Shown here one piece after another: positions 6,947 to 16,706 of a stretch of 64,000 nucleotides of DNA. The position numbers and the translations under genes are program-made. Source of the stretch: Morinoia aosen (Eukaryota > Arthropoda > Malacostraca > Amphipoda > Talitridae); contig CM059575.1 of the NCBI GenBank assembly GCA_030386875.1, positions 20,546,293 to 20,610,292 of the forward strand. The letters are read 5' to 3'. A model generated the notes under the pieces. It was not told where the DNA came from, ran no database searches, and saw only the letters and a program-made list of their open reading frames with translations. How positions within the stretch are numbered: the first letter of the stretch is position 1; the number at the start of each line of letters is the position of its first letter.

Positions 6947-7506
6947 CTTGTATCCATACGGACAGCTTTTCCCGCAGTCAGCTTCGCAGTCTGTGAAGCC
7001 GTCAGATGAGCTCACGCCGGGACCTCCCGCCTCCGATCCCGGATTGACGGCTGAAGAAAAACTGTGGGGCCTGTTGGGCTGTTCATAGTCGTGGTCCCCA
7101 TGGTCATGGATCGTATTGACCGAAGGCAGCAAATCTAAGCTGTTATCGTAGTTTTCGTGGCGGTCACTGTAATCTTCCTGATCGTAATCGTCAAAGTAAC
7201 CGTCTTCATCATCGCTGTAGTACCAAGGAGGCATACCGGAAGATTGCAAGTCGTATTCGTAGTCGTCATCGTCAAAAGCAAGTAATCGTTCGATCGCTTC
7301 GCTCCTCGTCTCAATTGAGGAAGATTTGGTGGATTGTTCTTCCGGCTGCGTTACTTCATTTGAAACAGTATTGTTTCTGGCTTCCTCTGGGCTCTCTTCT
7401 TTGCTCCTGGCGCGGTCCTTTACATTTTCTGAGCTGCTGCCCACAACGTCTTCTTGGGCCGACGGAGTTTTGGCAGATGGAGGCGTGATGAAACCAAGCT
7501 CCGGAC
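6947..7506 (-). CDS. Acidic linker exon of a VWC/antistasin-type secreted protein (partial gene)
   Basis: An internal exon of 560 bp on the minus strand. It is bounded by an acceptor at 7508-7507 (reads ...TTTATATGCACAG|GTCCGG) and a donor after 6947 (TACAAG|GTATTC). It enters in phase 1 and leaves in phase 0. It encodes about 186 residues: a Ser/Glu/Lys-rich stretch, a strongly acidic Asp/Tyr-rich block (FDDDDYEYDL, YYSDDEDGYFDDYDQEDYSD), a His/Asp-rich stretch, then a cysteine cluster ending DCEADCGKSCPYGYK. CPYGYK is how antistasin-like modules of CRIM1-type proteins begin, which would continue in the next exon. With the upstream VWC exon this suggests a secreted or membrane-tethered BMP-modulator or matrix protein. 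The family call is an inference from cysteine spacing. The N-terminal and C-terminal exons were not found. Confidence 0.6.
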
Positions 7507-8207: not shown

Positions 8208-9173
8208 TGTTGAAAATCTTCCGCATTACTGATCGTGGCCTGGCCCTGTGGAAGAAGAAGCTCTCTTCCGATCGCCTGGCTTAGTGGCCAGGGAGAGATT
8301 TTGAAGCCGTTGAATTTAGTTCTTTCTGTTCTTCGTTTTTTGTTTTGCAGCTGCAACTTTTCTTTTCGTTTTATTGTGTTCAAATTTGTATCTCTAGAAT
8401 TAAGCATGTTTGAACCTCTTCTGGACCCACTGTAACATTAAATGCATTAATTAATTAAACCTAAAACGGGACGCGTTTGCGTGTACCCATTAAACTAACT
8501 TAAACTTAACTTACTGCTTGGGCAGCATGTCGCCCTTTTAAAAGTGGGTCTGGTTCCTTAAACTATTTTCTCTATATTAAATAAGCGGGTTTTTCGCCCA
8601 TTAACTTCCTCGACCCGGCTCGTGCAGCCTCTTGAATAGGGATTTAATATTCAAGGTAAATAATGTTTTCTTAAAATCTACCTGATAAATATGTACTTGT
8701 AACTTTGAAACTATAAAGCAGCTAAATATTATTCTGTTACTATAATTAGTGTTATATAGCCAGACTTCATAAAGCCCTGTCTCCTTGTTCAGAACGACTC
8801 TGTGCTTCCCTTGGAGTACCGTATTGCTGGCCAGTGGTGGTCTTATTGGACGAGCTGCCGTCTTTCTATTTGTCGTCTTGGAACTCTGGCGAGTCACGTT
8901 TCGTGGACCCCGCGTTGAGAGCTTCGCGTTTCTGGCCGTTTTTAAGGAGCCTTAAATCAAACTGCTACAGAGGAAACTAAGAATTTCGGAATCCGCTGGA
9001 ATCCTCAGGATGCCCCTAACTTGAGTGCGGTTACTGTATTTCCTCTTTTGGAGAAGCTACTCATTGTTGTTGCAACTCTGTATTTCCTCTTTTGGAGAAG
9101 CAACTCGTTGTGGTTTTGTTCCAAAAACCATAATAAACGTTTAAATTATTGCACTCTAGTTTAAATCCTAAAA
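8208..9173 (+). repeat. 5' LTR of BEL/Pao element
   Basis: 966 bp, starting TGTTGAAAATC and ending TTAAATCCTAAAA. A TATA-like TCTATATTAAAT lies near 8569 and a polyadenylation signal AATAAA at 9132-9137. A 38-bp segment (TGTATTTCCTCTTTTGGAG...) is tandemly duplicated near 9034-9110. A 98-codon antisense open frame (8601-8897) occurs in both LTRs but starts with GTG and shows no known domain. Confidence 0.95.
9132..9137 (+). promoter_or_regulatory. AATAAA polyadenylation signal in 5' LTR
   Basis: AATAAA sits 36 bp before the LTR end; the same hexamer in the 3' LTR (15542-15547) would direct 3' end formation of the genomic RNA. Confidence 0.55.
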
Positions 9174-9180
9174 TAAGTTC

Positions 9181-12100
9181 TTGAATATTAAATTTCTTGA
9201 GGATTCCAGCTTTCCTCTGGTTGGGTTCTTTTCTTTAACTAAAACTTGCCCCGCCAATTTTCGTCATGCTTATGACGATAAGGCTTACCGCGATCTTGTC
9301 CGTCAGCGCGCTGTTCTTAAGCGAAAGATAACTTTTACCCTTGCCAAGGAGGGTGCGGCTGGCGTTTCTTCAGAGAGCATCACGCAGACCGTAGCTGATC
9401 TTCTGAAGAGGGTGAGTAATCTGGATGAGCAGATTAACCTTAATTTAATCGGCGATTCCGACGATTTGTCCGAGCAGCATTTGGCTGAGCTTGACAATCA
9501 AACTTGTTATAATTTGGAAATTAAAGCTAAAATCGAAGCAATTACGGCAAAGCCGAAATTCGATGAAGTACGTCATGATCTTAAGCTGCCGCATCTGTCG
9601 TGCGAGTCCTTTTCTGGCGAAGGTTCTAGTAGCTTGGATTATCATAAGTTCATTACCCAGTACAATAACATCATTGGTTTGCGTACTACTCTCTCTAACT
9701 CTGTCAAGTTTACCTATCTTAAAAGTTTCTTGAGCGGTTATGCTTTGAAACTGGTGCAACATTTCCAGGTCACCGATGACAATTATTGTGTAGCCATAAA
9801 TTTGTTAGAGACAGAGTTCCTGAACAAGAGGTCTCTGATAAGTGACTTGTACAAAAAGTTACTAGAAAGTAAGGTTAAGTTCGATTCCTCATTCATGCAG
9901 ACAAAATTGTTCATTAATGAAGTTCGGTGTCTGCTGGCTGACTTGAAAACTTACGATAGGGATTTGCTCGAGAGGGAAACTAGTAAAGATTTTGTATCTC
10001 ATATTATTTTTAATAAGCTGCCTCTGGTTGTGCGACAAGAGTTCGTTCGTAAATTGAACGACAATTATCCTAGTATCGATCTTATTTTCGAGCACTACGT
10101 AGAGGTAATTAAAACTTTGACTATGCGAAATGCTAGCAGAGATCAGCCGGACAAAGTCTTCGATCTCATGCCTGTCAAGCAAAGAGATTCATCTTGGTCG
10201 GTAGGAAAAGTCGATCCTAAACCTGTCTTCCTCAATTCTAACTCTACTGCTAGGAGGTCTTGTAAATTTTGTGCTTCGAAAGATCATTCCATGTTTAACT
10301 GCAATAATTATTCTTCCTTCAAATCTAGAGTTTCTCGCTGCAACGAGCTTGGACTTTGTAAACAGTGTTCTAGCTCGAAGCATGCGTCGGAGAGATGTCA
10401 ATCTGTCTTAGATTACCCGTGTACTATTTGTTCCTCTAAAAAGCACATTTCAGCTTTGTGTTCTAGGTTCATGTGCGGTAAAACTTCGAATAGCTTTTGC
10501 CTGAATAATTCAACCTTGGGCGGTGGACATTTACTTCCAACTCTCTCGATTAAAGTAGCTCGTGGCGGTAAGGTAACCAGTGTGAGATGCTTGATTGATA
10601 CGGGGAGCCAGAGATCCTACCTTGCTGCTAAGGTGTTAGATAGGTTGAATTCCCACAACAAGGGTACTGAGAAGCCTTACCTTGTAAACTCTTTTCTCAA
10701 TTCCGGCATCAGGAAATTTTCTGAAGCCAGTTTGTCTGTTGGTTTTTGCGATCAGTTAGGTTTCTTCAACCTTATATTTCTGATCGATAAAGACTTTTCT
10801 CTAAAATTTGAAGTTCGTGGCTTGAAAGAAGCCTTGTTAAATCTTTCTCAAAATTTTAGGTTAGCTGATGAGGCTTTCAAGGGCTGCTCAGAGTCTGATA
10901 CTTGCGAGCTTGAGGGATTGCTTGGCGTTGATGCCATCCAGTTTTTCAGGGATTTTTCTTTGATTTCTTGCATGAAGGGAGCTGCTTTTAGTTACAGTGG
11001 TGGCATAATACCCTTTGGGCAGGTGGAAAATTTCCTGTACAAAGGTCAAGTGTGTGCGCTGAACTCACAGGCGGACACAAGCTCCGAGAAGGTGGAGCAT
11101 AGCTCAACTAATTTCTTGCTCGAACCTTTGGGACAAAATTTTGATCCTATAACTGGCGTTCTTGATGATAGCGACGTGGAGGGTCGTTTAGAAAATTTGT
11201 TTGAAATTGAATCTATCGGGTTGAAGGAAGAGTCTTCGAGCTTCGATGAGGAGCAAGTAGCTAAGTTTTCAGAGACTGTTGAACTAGCCAACGGTAAATA
11301 TCAAGTAGAGCTTCCTTGGTATCAAGAAAAACTTGCGAAGGTTGAAAGCGGGTTCAATGTAGCTCTTGCTGTACTCAATAGGGTTGTGGAAAAACTCCAC
11401 CATAATTCCTTGTACGAAGCTTATGATTCTGTTTTTAAACAACAAATTAATGATCAAATCCTTGAACCTTTGAACTTAAATGAAATTAAAAGGGAGGAAC
11501 ATGTTTGGATTCCTCATAGACCTGTGGTAAAAGAAGCTGAGCAAGTAACGACGAAAGTAAGACCAGTTCTTAACTGCAGTATTAAAACAAGAGATTCCTA
11601 TTCTTTAAACCAAAGCGCTTATCCTGGCATTAATTTGTTCCAAACCATTTTGTTCCTCTTGCTAAGCATTAGGTTCAACAGTTACTTAATGATTTCGGAT
11701 ATTAAGCAAGCGTTTTTGCAAATCCAACGTAAAACTAATTTCGATCGTAACAAATTTACAATTTTGTGGTTTGACGATGAAGGGAAATTGGCTGCGTTTA
11801 GATATAAAACGTTAGTGTTTGGATTCATATCGTCGCCCTTTGTTTTGAATTTTGTTATCAAATGGCATGTGGCCAAGTACCCTAAAGACGTTTGTTCTAA
11901 AATTTTGTCGGAAAACTTTTACGTAGACAATTTGTTCATTACTGGGAACAATTTGCAGACTCTGCATGACTTGTACAAAGAATCTTGTCACCGAATGAGG
12001 CAGGGAGGGTTTGAACTGCGCTCATGGGTTTCTAACAACTCGTTTCTTACTAACTGTTTTCATACAGATGGGATCGGCGCCGATCACGCGTCGAGCTACG

Positions 12101-13524
12101 AGAAGCTCTTGGGTTACCGTTATTTCACTAACTCTGACCAAATTAGTCTTGCTGAAATTACTGCTCCGACAGGTAAGCCTTGTAAAAGACAAGTGTTGTC
12201 CTTTCTTGCTAGGGTGTTTGATCCGTTAGGTCTGTTTTTTCCTGTTATTGCAAGGTGCAAGATACTGCTTAGAGATCTTTGGATCAGTAAAATTGGTTGG
12301 GATGATAGCTTGCCTGCGGAAATTTTGTCCAGGTGGCAACGGCTTGCACCTGAAGTGCTACAATTAAACTCGGTATCCGTTGACCGGCAGGTTGCCAAAG
12401 ATGGTGACGCTGTTACGCTGATTAATTTCACGGACGCTTCTAAGGATATGTATGGGTTTTGCACCTATTTGAAAACAGACGGCGAGCCTAATCTTTTTTT
12501 CGCGAAGGGCAAAACTGCTCCTATTAAAAGTAAATCTATTCCCACTTTAGAATTGTTGGCAGTGTATTTGTCTTTTAAATGCCTGTTTTCTTTGCTGGAT
12601 GCCTTAAAAAATCTGAAGATTGAAGAAATTTACTTTTGTGTAGATTCTCAAGTAGTCATTTCATGGATTTTAACAGGTAATGTAAAGTCTAAAAATGTTT
12701 TCGCTCGAAACAGAGTGAGAGACGTCAGAACTTTCATGGGTGAGGTATCGAAACAAACGGGAATTGTTCCCAAGTTCAGGTACGTGGCATCTAGCCTTAA
12801 TCCCGCTGACTTGGTATCAAGAGGTGCTAGACCAGCAGAATGGTTGGGGAAGATGAAATTTTGGCTGCATGGGCCCGAGTTTCTTCATGCCAATGTTATA
12901 GATTGGCCTGATAGTAGTTTGAAATGTTTTTCGGAGGTAACAAAAACCCTCGTGTCTAGCATCAGTCTTCCTCTTGAATCTCCTCCACTTTCTCTTCAAA
13001 ATTATTCAAAGCTTAAGACACTGTTGTCGATCACCGCGTTTGTTTTCCTTTTTATAGCAAAACTCAAGCGGGAAATAGCGAGTTTTTTAGCCTGCTTTGA
13101 AAAAGCTCGTCTTTATTGGATTAAGTACGAGCAGTCGGTACATTTTGCCGAAGAATTGGCCTTTTTAAAGAACTCTTCTAAAACTGTCCCTAATTTAGTT
13201 TTGAATCTTAATCTCTTCATAGATGAGAGAGGCTTACTACGTTCGAAAGGGCGTATTAATAGGTGCATGGTTGTGAACGAAGAGGTGCGCAATCCTGTTT
13301 TGTTGCCCAAAAGCAGTCACTTGACAGAGCTCTTTATTTGGGATGCTCATCAGCGATGCTGTCACATGGGGGTCAAATCCACTTTGAATAATATTAGGAA
13401 TAGCGGTTTGTGGATCCCTCAAGGTAGGTCGGCGGTCAAAAGCGTATTAAATAAATGTGTAATCTGTAGAAAAATAAACTCCTCTGCTTTCAAATATCCG
13501 AAATTTACGGATTTTCAGAGATAG
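9181..13524 (+). CDS. BEL/Pao Gag-Pol polyprotein, 5' part (gag, protease, RT, RNase H, integrase N-terminus)
   Basis: A 1,447-codon open frame. Gag: DUF1759-like segment at about residues 130-320, then three CX2CX4HX4C zinc knuckles at about 361, 393 and 414. Protease: LIDTGSQRSYL with the active-site Asp near 473. Reverse transcriptase: ISDIKQAFLQIQ (Asp about 840) and FYVDNLF (Asp916-Asn917). RNase H: catalytic-type residues in DASKD (1085), LELLAVY (1124) and VDSQ (1155), then NPADLVSRG. Integrase zinc-binding HHCC region at about 1380-1433. The frame opens after a TAA at 9169-9171 and has no in-frame ATG until about residue 238, so the TTG at 9181 is only nominal; a non-AUG or spliced start is possible. 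The frame ends at TAG 13522, inside integrase, because of a frameshift. Confidence 0.93.
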   Translation: MNIKFLEDSSFPLVGFFSLTKTCPANFRHAYDDKAYRDLVRQRAVLKRKITFTLAKEGAAGVSSESITQTVADLLKRVSNLDEQINLNLIGDSDDLSEQHLAELDNQTCYNLEIKAKIEAITAKPKFDEVRHDLKLPHLSCESFSGEGSSSLDYHKFITQYNNIIGLRTTLSNSVKFTYLKSFLSGYALKLVQHFQVTDDNYCVAINLLETEFLNKRSLISDLYKKLLESKVKFDSSFMQTKLFINEVRCLLADLKTYDRDLLERETSKDFVSHIIFNKLPLVVRQEFVRKLNDNYPSIDLIFEHYVEVIKTLTMRNASRDQPDKVFDLMPVKQRDSSWSVGKVDPKPVFLNSNSTARRSCKFCASKDHSMFNCNNYSSFKSRVSRCNELGLCKQCSSSKHASERCQSVLDYPCTICSSKKHISALCSRFMCGKTSNSFCLNNSTLGGGHLLPTLSIKVARGGKVTSVRCLIDTGSQRSYLAAKVLDRLNSHNKGTEKPYLVNSFLNSGIRKFSEASLSVGFCDQLGFFNLIFLIDKDFSLKFEVRGLKEALLNLSQNFRLADEAFKGCSESDTCELEGLLGVDAIQFFRDFSLISCMKGAAFSYSGGIIPFGQVENFLYKGQVCALNSQADTSSEKVEHSSTNFLLEPLGQNFDPITGVLDDSDVEGRLENLFEIESIGLKEESSSFDEEQVAKFSETVELANGKYQVELPWYQEKLAKVESGFNVALAVLNRVVEKLHHNSLYEAYDSVFKQQINDQILEPLNLNEIKREEHVWIPHRPVVKEAEQVTTKVRPVLNCSIKTRDSYSLNQSAYPGINLFQTILFLLLSIRFNSYLMISDIKQAFLQIQRKTNFDRNKFTILWFDDEGKLAAFRYKTLVFGFISSPFVLNFVIKWHVAKYPKDVCSKILSENFYVDNLFITGNNLQTLHDLYKESCHRMRQGGFELRSWVSNNSFLTNCFHTDGIGADHASSYEKLLGYRYFTNSDQISLAEITAPTGKPCKRQVLSFLARVFDPLGLFFPVIARCKILLRDLWISKIGWDDSLPAEILSRWQRLAPEVLQLNSVSVDRQVAKDGDAVTLINFTDASKDMYGFCTYLKTDGEPNLFFAKGKTAPIKSKSIPTLELLAVYLSFKCLFSLLDALKNLKIEEIYFCVDSQVVISWILTGNVKSKNVFARNRVRDVRTFMGEVSKQTGIVPKFRYVASSLNPADLVSRGARPAEWLGKMKFWLHGPEFLHANVIDWPDSSLKCFSEVTKTLVSSISLPLESPPLSLQNYSKLKTLLSITAFVFLFIAKLKREIASFLACFEKARLYWIKYEQSVHFAEELAFLKNSSKTVPNLVLNLNLFIDERGLLRSKGRINRCMVVNEEVRNPVLLPKSSHLTELFIWDAHQRCCHMGVKSTLNNIRNSGLWIPQGRSAVKSVLNKCVICRKINSSAFKYPKFTDFQR

Positions 13525-14590
13525 GGTTAATTTTGTAGTACCCTTCAAATTCACCGGGGTTGATTTCACGGGTTCACTGAACGTTAAACTAGGGGATAGC
13601 TGTCGCAAAATGTACATCCTTATTTTTACTTGTCTTAATGTGCGGGCAGTACATCTCGAACTTCTTCCGGATATGACAACTAGTTCATTCTTACTTGCGT
13701 TCAAACGGTTCTGTAATGTTCAAAATATACCCGACTCGATTTATAGTGATAATGCCCGTACCTTTTTGCAGGCGGGCACGCTTCTTGAAAATTTGCCTTT
13801 AGACGATTGCTTTTCTAAATATTTGCTGCACCACAATATAAAACACGTGAAAATTCCTGTGTATTCGCCTTTCGTAGGGTCCCTGTGGGAACGTTTAATA
13901 CGAGTAGTAAAGGGGTGTTTGTATAAAAGTGCAGGTAGAAAAAGAATGGAATATTTTGAATTAATAACTTTATTGTCGGATATTCAGCTGACAGTGAACT
14001 CGCGCCCTTTAACTTACCTTGACGATGAGTCTTCTCTTAATTTCTCGATCTTGACTCCGAATTCGTTTTTGAAAATCAGTAATGCTAAAAGCGCAGTGGC
14101 CCTTCCTTCTTCTGAAGGCGTGGTTTCTCCATCTCGTCGAGATGTAGTGAACTCTTACAAATCCCGTGTTGCTGTATTTGACGAATTCAAAAGACTCTGG
14201 TATGAAGATTATCTTTTGTCTTTGCGTGAGTTGGAGCGAGATTTGTTCCAGTCGGACTGGATAGACAAAATTAAGCGTAATGATGTTGTGCTAATATTTT
14301 CTCCCTCTGTACCGAGGCCCTTTTGGCAGCTCGGCAGGGTATTAGAATTAAATTTGGGCAATGATGGGCACTATCGATCAGCCTGTGTCAGACGTGTTGA
14401 TGGTACGGAAGGAATATACTCCATAATGCTCTTGTACCCACTTGAATTGTCCCTTGCAGAAGTGGAGACGCGCGACGAGGGTGGCGCGGTTGGGGCTGAC
14501 CAAGAGGGTCAACCAGATGTGGGGCCTTCTAGACCTCAGCGCGCGGCTGCGTTGCGTTGTCGAGCGAAATTGGCAGAGAATGCTAGTTAA
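13523..14590 (+). pseudogene. BEL/Pao integrase catalytic core and C-terminal domain (frameshifted continuation)
   Basis: The integrase continues in the next frame. This frame is open from 13478, and its first ATG (13610) is internal, not a true start. The first catalytic Asp lies in the GVDF motif at about 13562, before that ATG. The second is in YSDNARTF (13748) and the Glu is in GSLWERLI (13889). The C-terminus (about 14270-14450) resembles DUF5641 of BEL/Pao elements. A +1-type frame change between 13478 and 13521 separates it from the upstream frame; the simplest cause is one inserted base or two deleted bases. With near-identical LTRs the lesion is either very recent, was present when the element copied, or is a sequence error. 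Confidence 0.88.
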
Positions 14591-14617: not shown

Positions 14618-15583
14618 TGTTGAAAATCTTCCGCATTACTGATCGTGGCCTGGCCCTGTGGAAGAAGAAGCTCTCTTCCGATCGCCTGGCTTAGTGGCCA
14701 GGGAGAGATTTTGAAGCCGTTGAATTTAGTTCTTTCTGTTCTTCGTTTTTTGTTTTGCAGCTGCAACTTTTCTTTTCGTTTTATTGTGTTCAAATTTGTA
14801 TCTCTAGAATTAAGCATGTTTGAACCTCTTCTGGACCCACTGTAACATTAAATGCATTAATTAATTAAACCTAAAACGGGACGCGTTTGCGTGTACACAT
14901 TAAACTAACTTAAACTTAACTTACTGCTTGGGCAGCATGTCGCCCTTTTAAAAGTGGGTCTGGTTCCTTAAACTATTTTCTCTATATTAAATAAGCGGGT
15001 TTTTCGCCCATTAACTTCCTCGACCCGGCTCGTGCAGCCTCTTGAATAGGGATTTAATATTCAAGGTAAATAATGTTTTCTTAAAATCTACCTGATAAAT
15101 ATGTACTTGTAACTTTGAAACTATAAAGCAGCTAAATATTATTCTGTTACTATAATTAGTGTTATATAGCCAGACTTCATAAAGCCCTGTCTCCTTGTTC
15201 AGAACGACTCTGTGCTTCCCTTGGAGTACCGTATTGCTGGCCAGTGGTGGTCTTATTGGACGAGCTGCCGTCTTTCTATTTGTCGTCTTGGAACTCTGGC
15301 GAGTCACGTTTCGTGGACCCCGCGTTGAGAGCTTCGCGTTTCTGGCCGTTTTTAAGGAGCCTTAAATCAAACTGCTACAGAGGAAACTAAGAATTTCGGA
15401 ATCCGCTGGAATCCTCAGGATGCCCCTAACTTGAGTGCGGTTACTGTATTTCCTCTTTTGGAGAAGCTACTCATTGTTGTTGCAACTCTGTATTTCCTCT
15501 TTTGGAGAAGCAACTCGTTGTGGTTTTGTTCCAAAAACCATAATAAACGTTTAAATTATTGCACTCTAGTTTAAATCCTAAAA
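14618..15583 (+). repeat. 3' LTR of BEL/Pao element
   Basis: 966 bp, collinear with the 5' LTR at an offset of 6410 bp, with one substitution seen by eye (A at 14897). It is followed directly by the CAGC target duplication. Confidence 0.95.
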
Positions 15584-15587
15584 CAGC

Positions 15588-15951
15588 GCTTCTCAATTGA
15601 CACCATGGAGCCTCCACGATTGACACACTCCGGATTTGGAATGACTCGCTTCTTTCTGAATTTGGAACGACTCTCCTCACTCTCAATTAAGAAAGACTCA
15701 CCACATTTTGGATTCGGAAAGACTTGCTAAATTTGGAATTCGGAATGACAGACTAAATTTAGGATTCAAAATGATCAATAACTAGCATTGAAATACGTTT
15801 GCCAAGAATTTTGGTTAAATTTTCGCTTGGAAATTTGTGCTCAGCGCAAAAGAACAACCGAAACAATTAATTTAGATAATTCGCATATTAGCTGACAACA
15901 CACCAGTGGTGGTATGGTAGCACCACATATGAAACATCCACCGTTGCAATA
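15588..15951. other. Intron DNA between BEL element and 30-bp array
   Basis: Contains a loose repetition of 'gattcggaatgact' and 'tttggaatgact' variants at about 15620-15770, an old degenerate tandem. No exon is seen. Confidence 0.4.
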
Positions 15952-16593
15952 GTGGTACTAACACCACCCACCGTTGCAGTAGTGGTAGTAACACCACCTA
16001 CCGTTGCAGTAGTGGTAGTAACACCACCTACCGTTGCAGTAGTGGTAGTAACACCACCTACCGTTGCAGTAGTGGTAGTAACACCACCTACCGTTGCAGT
16101 AGTGGTAGTAACACTACCTACCGTTGCAGTAGTGGTAGTAACACCGCCCACCGTTGCAGTAGTGGTAGTAACACCACCTACCGTTGCAGTAGTGGTAGTA
16201 ACACCACCTACCGTTGCAGCAGTGGTAGTAACACCACCCACCGTTACAGTAGTGGTAGTAACGCCACCCACCGTTGCAGTAGTGGTAGTAACACCACCCA
16301 CCGTTGCAGTAGTGGTAGTAACACCACCCACCGTTGCAGTAGTGGTAGTAACACCATCCACCTTTGCAGTAGTGGTAGTAACACCATCCACCGTTTCAGT
16401 AGTGGTAGTAACACCATCCACCTTTGCAGTAGTGGTAGTAACACCACCCACAGTTGCAGTAGTGGTAGTAACAACACCCACCGTTTCAGTAGTGGTAGTA
16501 ACACCATCCACCTTTGCAGTAGTGGTAGTAACACCACCCACAGTTGCAGTAGTGGTAGTAACAACACCCACCGTTGCAGTAGTGGTAGTAACA
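15952..16593. repeat. 30-bp minisatellite built from a VWC exon end plus its splice donor, about 21 units
   Basis: Tandem 30-bp units. On the minus strand each reads TGTTACTACCACTACTGCAA followed by CGGTGGGTGG or CGGTAGGTGG. The unit at the upper end is the true end of the VWC exon (Cys-Tyr-Tyr-His-Tyr-Cys-Asn) plus the donor (AACG|GTGGGT). Most other units repeat both the coding end and a donor-like motif, and several distal units (about 15980-16210) carry a stronger GTAGGT. The VWC frame hits a TGA in the fourth unit (about 16486). Another frame is open throughout as a Thr/Val-rich translation, and the plus strand is also stop-free; I regard those as repeat by-products. Confidence 0.9.
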
Positions 16594-16706
16594 CCGCTGC
16601 TCCCCGTCATCACACTGGCAGATGGCGCAGCGGTCGTCCCCCTCGCTCCAGGAAGATCCGTGCCTGTGGACGCCCACCAATTCGTTGCCGACGAACACTG
16701 CGCAGT
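16572..16706 (-). CDS. von Willebrand factor C (VWC) domain exon (partial gene)
   Basis: A 135-bp internal exon. The acceptor is strong: TTTTCTTTTCTTTCAG|ACTGCG. The proposed donor is AACG|GTGGGT at 16572/16571. Entry is in phase 1 and exit in phase 1, matching the next exon at 7506. The reading has the VWC cysteine pattern: Cys near the start, Gly-Ser-Ser-Trp-Ser, then RCAICQCDDGEQRCYYHYC (C-x2-C-x-C-x6-C-x4-C). VWC modules in chordin, CRIM1 and Kielin-type proteins bind BMP ligands or build extracellular matrix. The exon's 3' end is the first unit of the adjacent minisatellite, so alternative donors in later units could lengthen it by 10 residues each until a stop. The upstream exons are not visible. 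Confidence 0.72.

Follow-up and report, generated by a model that had tools for sequence, protein, structure and literature searches.

The stretch of DNA analysed here (hereafter the window) comprises 64,000 nucleotides of contig CM059575.1 (C20) of the talitrid amphipod Morinoia aosen, forward-strand positions 20,546,293 to 20,610,292, and all positions below refer to it unless marked otherwise. Its minus strand carries a 135-bp exon (16572..16706), phase 1 at both ends, which encodes six cysteines in VWC order and follows a pyrimidine-rich acceptor (TTTCTTTCAG|AC, 15 of 16 positions). The predicted native donor, AACG|GTGGGT, lies at its 3' end (ACG|GTGGGTGT, 16564..16574, GT at 16571-16570). 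Against the Pfam VWC profile (PF00093) its 44 whole codons score 20.5 bits (E 5.9e-4, profile positions 7-37 of 57), which misses the curated cut-off of 27.6 bits, and the CCxxC second half of the domain is absent from the exon; a scan of the predicted intron for the pattern CC-x(1,2)-C found none either. We call the exon VWC-like because its score stays under the cut-off and the CCxxC half is missing. A preliminary description of this DNA, which had assigned a VWC exon with the donor above, was right about an exon end with its predicted donor; its VWC label is soft. No second copy of the exon was found genome-wide at E <= 1, and two matches among solved structures (E 0.44 and 0.96) were taken as chance.

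Further along the same strand, the predicted next exon (6947..7506) opens at a phase-1 acceptor (ATGCACAG|GT, 11 of 16 pyrimidines) and ends AAG|GTATTC within an antistasin motif (CEADCGKSCPYGYK); no Pfam family matches this exon itself below E 0.06. The rest of the motif, ITPGAGCPTCKC, lies 2.1 kb to the left of the window in a further exon (PF02822, 36.4 bits, over cut-off; C20:20544089-20544169, minus), and about 3 kb past this antistasin exon, again on the same strand, a full VWC domain scores 29.0 bits, also over cut-off. From their order, strand and phase we infer that the VWC-like, next, antistasin and full VWC exons form one gene. Joining the next exon to the VWC-like exon raises the score on a home-made VWC profile to 21.9 bits (vs 18.4 for the exon alone), a value reached by 88 of 2311 random open continuations of the window, which lends the join weak support. 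On the minus strand of the window no convincing upstream exon emerged from a scan which was itself weak: part of its training set were these two exons, and of the 18 loci used for training, 6 (L014, L022-L026) had been taken in the wrong orientation. The predicted intron between the VWC-like and next exons also houses two direct 966-bp repeats (8208-9173 and 14618-15583; 99.9% identical) that flank long plus-strand open frames (9172-13521, 13478-14587); together these make up a young LTR-element-like insertion.

At its 3' end the VWC-like exon runs into a minisatellite of 22 units of 30 bp (15935..16594, minus strand), unit 1 of which is the exon end itself. Each unit consists of the last 23 exon bases plus the first 7 intron bases, and positions 1-23 of the array consensus equal the last 23 bases of the exon, so that the tandem units span the predicted exon-intron boundary (as placed by donor strength and phase). 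Tandem Repeats Finder reports a period of 30 bp, 21.9 copies and 93% matches for 15938-16595; cut in register from 16594 to 15935, the array falls into 22 exact 30-bp units, 11 of them distinct, with a mean pairwise identity of 0.926. These counts confirm the roughly 21 tandem copies of the exon-end/donor segment that had been described, namely the exon's own unit and 21 more. Unit 1 has no mismatch to the consensus and unit 22, the most diverged, has three; beyond the latter, at the intron-side edge, lies a degenerate further copy containing a 2-bp gap (15904..15926, minus), with a local alignment score of 25 that none of 500 shuffles reached. Local alignment found no leftward extension of the repeat into the exon (348 of 500 shuffles scored as high). 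Unit pairs 2/5 and 3/6 are identical and units 4 and 7 differ by one base; since units 2-4 and 5-7 are thus near-identical trios, a 90-bp block has probably been duplicated.

The GT of the donor is intact in all 22 units, which match the 9-position donor consensus at seven (17 units) or six (5 units) sites. Duplex energies with the 5' end of U1 give the native donor -10.5 kcal/mol, a strength equalled by only 0.15% of 7207 background GTs. At -9.5 or below we count 14 of the 84 minus-strand GTs in the array vs 23 of the 7207 other GTs of the window on both strands, and among the 22 unit donors, native included, 14 reach this level. Units 2 and 3 are weak (-5.8 and -6.1); units 5-8 range from -4.8 to -6.1, unit 15 has -7.5 and unit 22 -4.8; unit 4, whose donor is identical to the native one, stands at -10.5, units 9-12 and 21 at -9.7, units 13, 14 and 17-20 at -10.1 and unit 16 at -10.6. 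A second measure, a donor matrix, was drawn from the exon ends of chaperonin-family genes (40 of 72 matches, with C26, C27 and terminal exons left out). In a first pass, 35 of the 40 ends had a donor matching at least 6 of 9 positions (mean U1 energy -7.2, 2 of 35 at -10.5 or below; +3 G in 17, A in 9); a stricter pass left one clear donor in 26 of 40 (+3 G 9, A 9, C 5, T 3), and both passes picked donors by consensus count with A and G at +3 treated alike. On the matrix from these 26 donors, which themselves average 9.0 +- 1.9, unit 1 scores 9.5 and the GTAGGT copies 8.8, as against 2.5 for unit 2 and 6.9 for unit 3. The seven GTAGGT donors (units 13, 14, 16-20) had been thought closer to consensus than the native donor. 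Instead, they tie with it at 7 of 9 positions and pair with U1 at -10.1 in six cases and -10.6 in one (unit 16), and the native donor is about equal to them or slightly better, except for unit 16 by U1 pairing.

What splicing from each donor would mean for the protein follows from the unit length. As a multiple of three, the 30-bp unit keeps the frame, so that every one of the 22 donors leaves phase 1, which the acceptor of the next exon suits throughout. Splicing at donor 1, 2 or 3 would add 0, 10 or 20 residues; with any later donor, an in-frame TGA in unit 4 (16486..16488, minus; VWC frame) would be read first, which puts the donors of units 4-22 behind a stop, and further stops in this frame lie in units 7, 16 and 22. 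The ten codons per skipped donor and the capping of in-frame isoforms by a TGA in unit 4, as set out in the preliminary description, are both borne out, with donors 1-3 as the limit. Transcripts using units 4-22 would carry their stop far ahead of further junctions and be candidates for decay, if the later exons are as predicted. Reading the exon peptide on through units 1-4 abolishes its Pfam VWC match, and no family is found at E <= 10.

How might such an array have arisen and what, if anything, does it do? In the reading that we prefer, a 30-bp tandem duplication across the exon-intron junction (23 exon and 7 intron bases) would have created the founding unit, which would then have expanded to 22 units that now open the intron on its 5' side. 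Functional mRNA would come from the donor nearest the exon (unit 1), and the array would be near-neutral, one of the many minisatellites of this genome that chanced to include an exon edge. We put the probability of this reading at about two in three. What suggests use of unit 1 is that almost no copy exceeds it in strength, that the two further in-frame donors are weak and that units 4 onward lie behind the TGA. Counter to the preferred reading stand the marginally stronger U1 pairing of unit 16 (-10.6 vs -10.5), the half-domain VWC match below the cut-off and the lack of a convincing upstream exon in the weak scan. As for the source of the repeat, nine other matches to the array exist genome-wide at 67-71% identity, and the seven examined turned out to be arrays with units of 24 or 32 bp rather than copies, which makes a local birth likely; an origin from a dispersed repeat was rejected on the same count (7 of 9).

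Between donor 1 and the truncating donors lies what to our minds is the live question. A different role could be envisaged in which the array acts as a decoy: U1 would settle on the many downstream donors, some pre-mRNA would be spliced behind the TGA and lost, and copy number would thereby lower gene output. That 14 of 22 array donors pair with U1 at -9.5 or better, and that units 4-22 all sit behind the stop, speaks for such competition; lancelet arrays of comparable build (see below) are reported to leave normal splicing undisturbed, and we hold the decoy role to be unlikely. A good deal less credit goes to the proposal, made in the preliminary description, that copy number tunes protein length through isoforms with +0, +10 and +20 residues from donors 1-3 and cysteines added per unit. 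The phase 1 common to all donors and the open units 1-3 would permit it, and in human IFI6 two downstream repeat units are reported to serve as donors. Yet an isoform ladder is unlikely because donors 2 and 3 are weak by either measure (U1 -5.8 and -6.1; matrix 2.5 and 6.9), the stronger ones come past the stop and read-through of the units costs the Pfam VWC match, so we do not uphold the proposal. Just as improbable in our view is a non-working exon (a pseudogene or a chance VWC-like frame) beside which the array would be a plain intergenic or intronic repeat. The half domain under threshold fits this, as does the failure of our weak scan to find an upstream exon; it is opposed by the strong acceptor and donor, the six-cysteine pattern and the orderly succession of the next and antistasin exons on the same strand.

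Ten of the 13 other VWC loci of the genome show the C6 motif (L009 and L010 being near-duplicates). At none of them does a strong donor lie 0-25 nt past C6; one site stands at -2, and at six loci a phase-1 donor follows at +67 to +91. An exon end such as the focal one is thus not typical of VWC exons, which counts against the preferred reading. A further possibility is that the array arose within a longer VWC exon and expelled its second half (FICGATIPPLVCCQLIC, behind the array) from the mRNA. Past the array, cysteine spacing in the VWC frame does resemble the missing half. However, with CNGGCFICGATIPPLVCCQLIC added the Pfam score drops to 17.3 from 20.5, with two of seven shuffles higher, and the local profile gives 11.7 vs 18.4 without it, 144 of 300 shuffles being as good or better; among 2311 open stretches in the window, 2220 score as well as the candidate or better, and the stretch overlaps the degenerate repeat copy. 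Having failed the profile and shuffle controls, this CC-x3-C candidate for a second VWC half hidden behind the array was rejected, and expulsion of a second half is highly improbable. Still less credible is a coding role for the repeat in another frame, a Thr-rich one (GVTTTTATVG) that stays open over 294 codons and across all 22 units. The array is also open in two plus-strand frames, as expected of a stop-free 30-bp unit, and with 3 of 6 frames open across it the openness of the Thr-rich frame means nothing; moreover, that frame disregards the cysteine pattern.

Arrays of this kind have precedents. In lancelets, minisatellite-like duplications of exon-intron boundaries, termed 'mirages', are described for Adh3, the globins BflGb6 and BflGb9, troponin C and PGBD5; many copies carry a splice signal, and splicing is reported to stay intact (PMC3087553, PMC3902484). 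The focal units resemble them in spanning a predicted exon-intron boundary and keeping the splice signal, and differ in the animal group, in number and size (22 units here vs 6 and 3 units of 150-160 bp in BflGb6 and units of 10-72 bp in Adh3), in the donor-side position and in the frame-keeping 30-bp length. On the escape of edge units from homogenisation, a further mark of mirages, the focal array points both ways: unit 22 is the most diverged and has a degenerate copy behind it, yet unit 1 equals the consensus. In the human gene IFI6 (6-16, G1P3), two downstream units of a minisatellite are reported to be used as donors, with three mRNA species as the result (PMC4526556). Like it, the focal minisatellite offers several predicted donors; unlike the IFI6 copies, whose use is reported, these are predicted from sequence, and the genes are unrelated. 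Variable internal tandem repeats at exon-intron boundaries of human duplicated genes, with units of 30 bp on average, are similar in being minisatellites at an exon edge that change gene structure, but have about four copies on average and are proposed to help form introns (PMC2812944). As lancelet mirages and human IFI6 have been described, the kind is already known, and the focal array is not the possibly undescribed type that it had been suggested to be. It is, by its predicted junction, a further mirage-type case in another lineage, and at least one other clear example is present in the same genome. Arrays named in lancelets thus occur more than once in another animal. Near-identical donors beside one exon amount to a natural experiment on how the spliceosome chooses a 5' splice site, and in minisatellite-rich genomes gene prediction can misplace exon ends.

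How often minisatellites meet exon edges here was approached in two ways. Counting arrays of five or more copies with periods of 10-150, we find 15 in the window, where they cover 8060 bases, and 10 in nine 10-kb samples taken at round coordinates, where they cover 5989 bases and are confined to 4 samples; under random placement, some 330-1400 arrays with a founding unit spanning a junction are expected, assuming 100,000-200,000 junctions. For exon edges, the survey took in 80 donor sides, of which 40 belong to chaperonin-family exons and the others come from lists of 150 matches per family (LDL-receptor-A 20, I-set 16, fn3 4), together with 60 acceptor sides, those of the latter 40 exons and of 20 of the 40 chaperonin exons. 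The places were hand-picked from match lists before any sequence was seen rather than sampled at random, and the match edge marks the splice site only approximately. An array of 2.5 copies or more lies within 40 nt of the match edge in 4 of the 80 donor and 3 of the 60 acceptor cases, and anywhere within 301 bp in 8 of 80 and 7 of 60. With no preference for donors (4/80 vs 3/60), minisatellites seeded by donors as a rule were rejected.

Individual cases are nonetheless telling. On contig C26, an LDL-receptor-A exon (C26:16305908, L093/L124, minus strand; 51.1 bits; L124 spans G000:C26:16304200-16306500) adjoins a 59-bp array of at least 29.5 copies with 97% matches, each unit of which holds the exon end (...DLSDELHHSCP) and the donor CAG|GTGAGT (U1 energy -13.3). 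Exact CCAGGTGAGT sites number 29 in the stretch examined, and the array runs past it. As the 59-bp period breaks the frame and brings stops at once, only the first donor can give protein, so that with at least 29 copies of CAG|GTGAGT alongside, a working gene would need the first donor to win. On the acceptor side of the same exon there is a CCCCTCAC-type array too (L135). Judged by its predicted exon end, the C26 array is an independent twin of the focal one on a larger scale. At L027:4208-4718 (C20, minus, about 5.3 kb left of the window) the full VWC exon of the predicted focal gene ends TCG|GTGGGTGT, and a 16-bp minisatellite of 32.1 copies with 24 GTGGGTG cores starts exactly at intron base +1 behind it. 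Elsewhere, a short 33-bp array of 2.9 copies begins exactly at the donor GT (L089/L125), and another array begins 13 nt beyond the donor (L077). Suppose that donor arrays at exon edges were frequent and recurrent in this genome and that copy number decided how much of a host gene's mRNA is productive and how much truncated. Each array would then pit 20-30 near-identical 5' splice sites against one another and provide a heritable, fast-mutating dial on gene output; we consider this generalization quite doubtful.

A few observations concern the surroundings and the assembly. Right of the window (L029:1100-5700) lies a long tandem array that is rich in Cys codons in at least two frames (CCDLLCVQV type). 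Near 20.5-21.0 Mb, contig C26 contains a mitochondrion-like COX1 and a full-length Cpn60 frame, for which reason the contig may be composite. Many COX1 and Cpn60 matches free of internal TGA in G000:C27:55-72 Mb suggest bacterial sequence collected in that contig. Mitochondrial sequence is also found on G000:C28 (L042/L043), with COX1 18.4 kb apart, and COX1 copies of equal score lie in G000:C26:20.75-21.03 Mb; these mitochondrial COX1 copies on C28 and C26 are either nuclear copies or assembly joins. The mitochondrial COX1 gives a good reading when TGA codes for Trp and AGA for Ser, and the order nad2-cox1-cox2-atp6-cox3, with nad5, nad4 and nad1 on the other strand, is arthropod-like, so that these data by themselves make an arthropod the most likely source.
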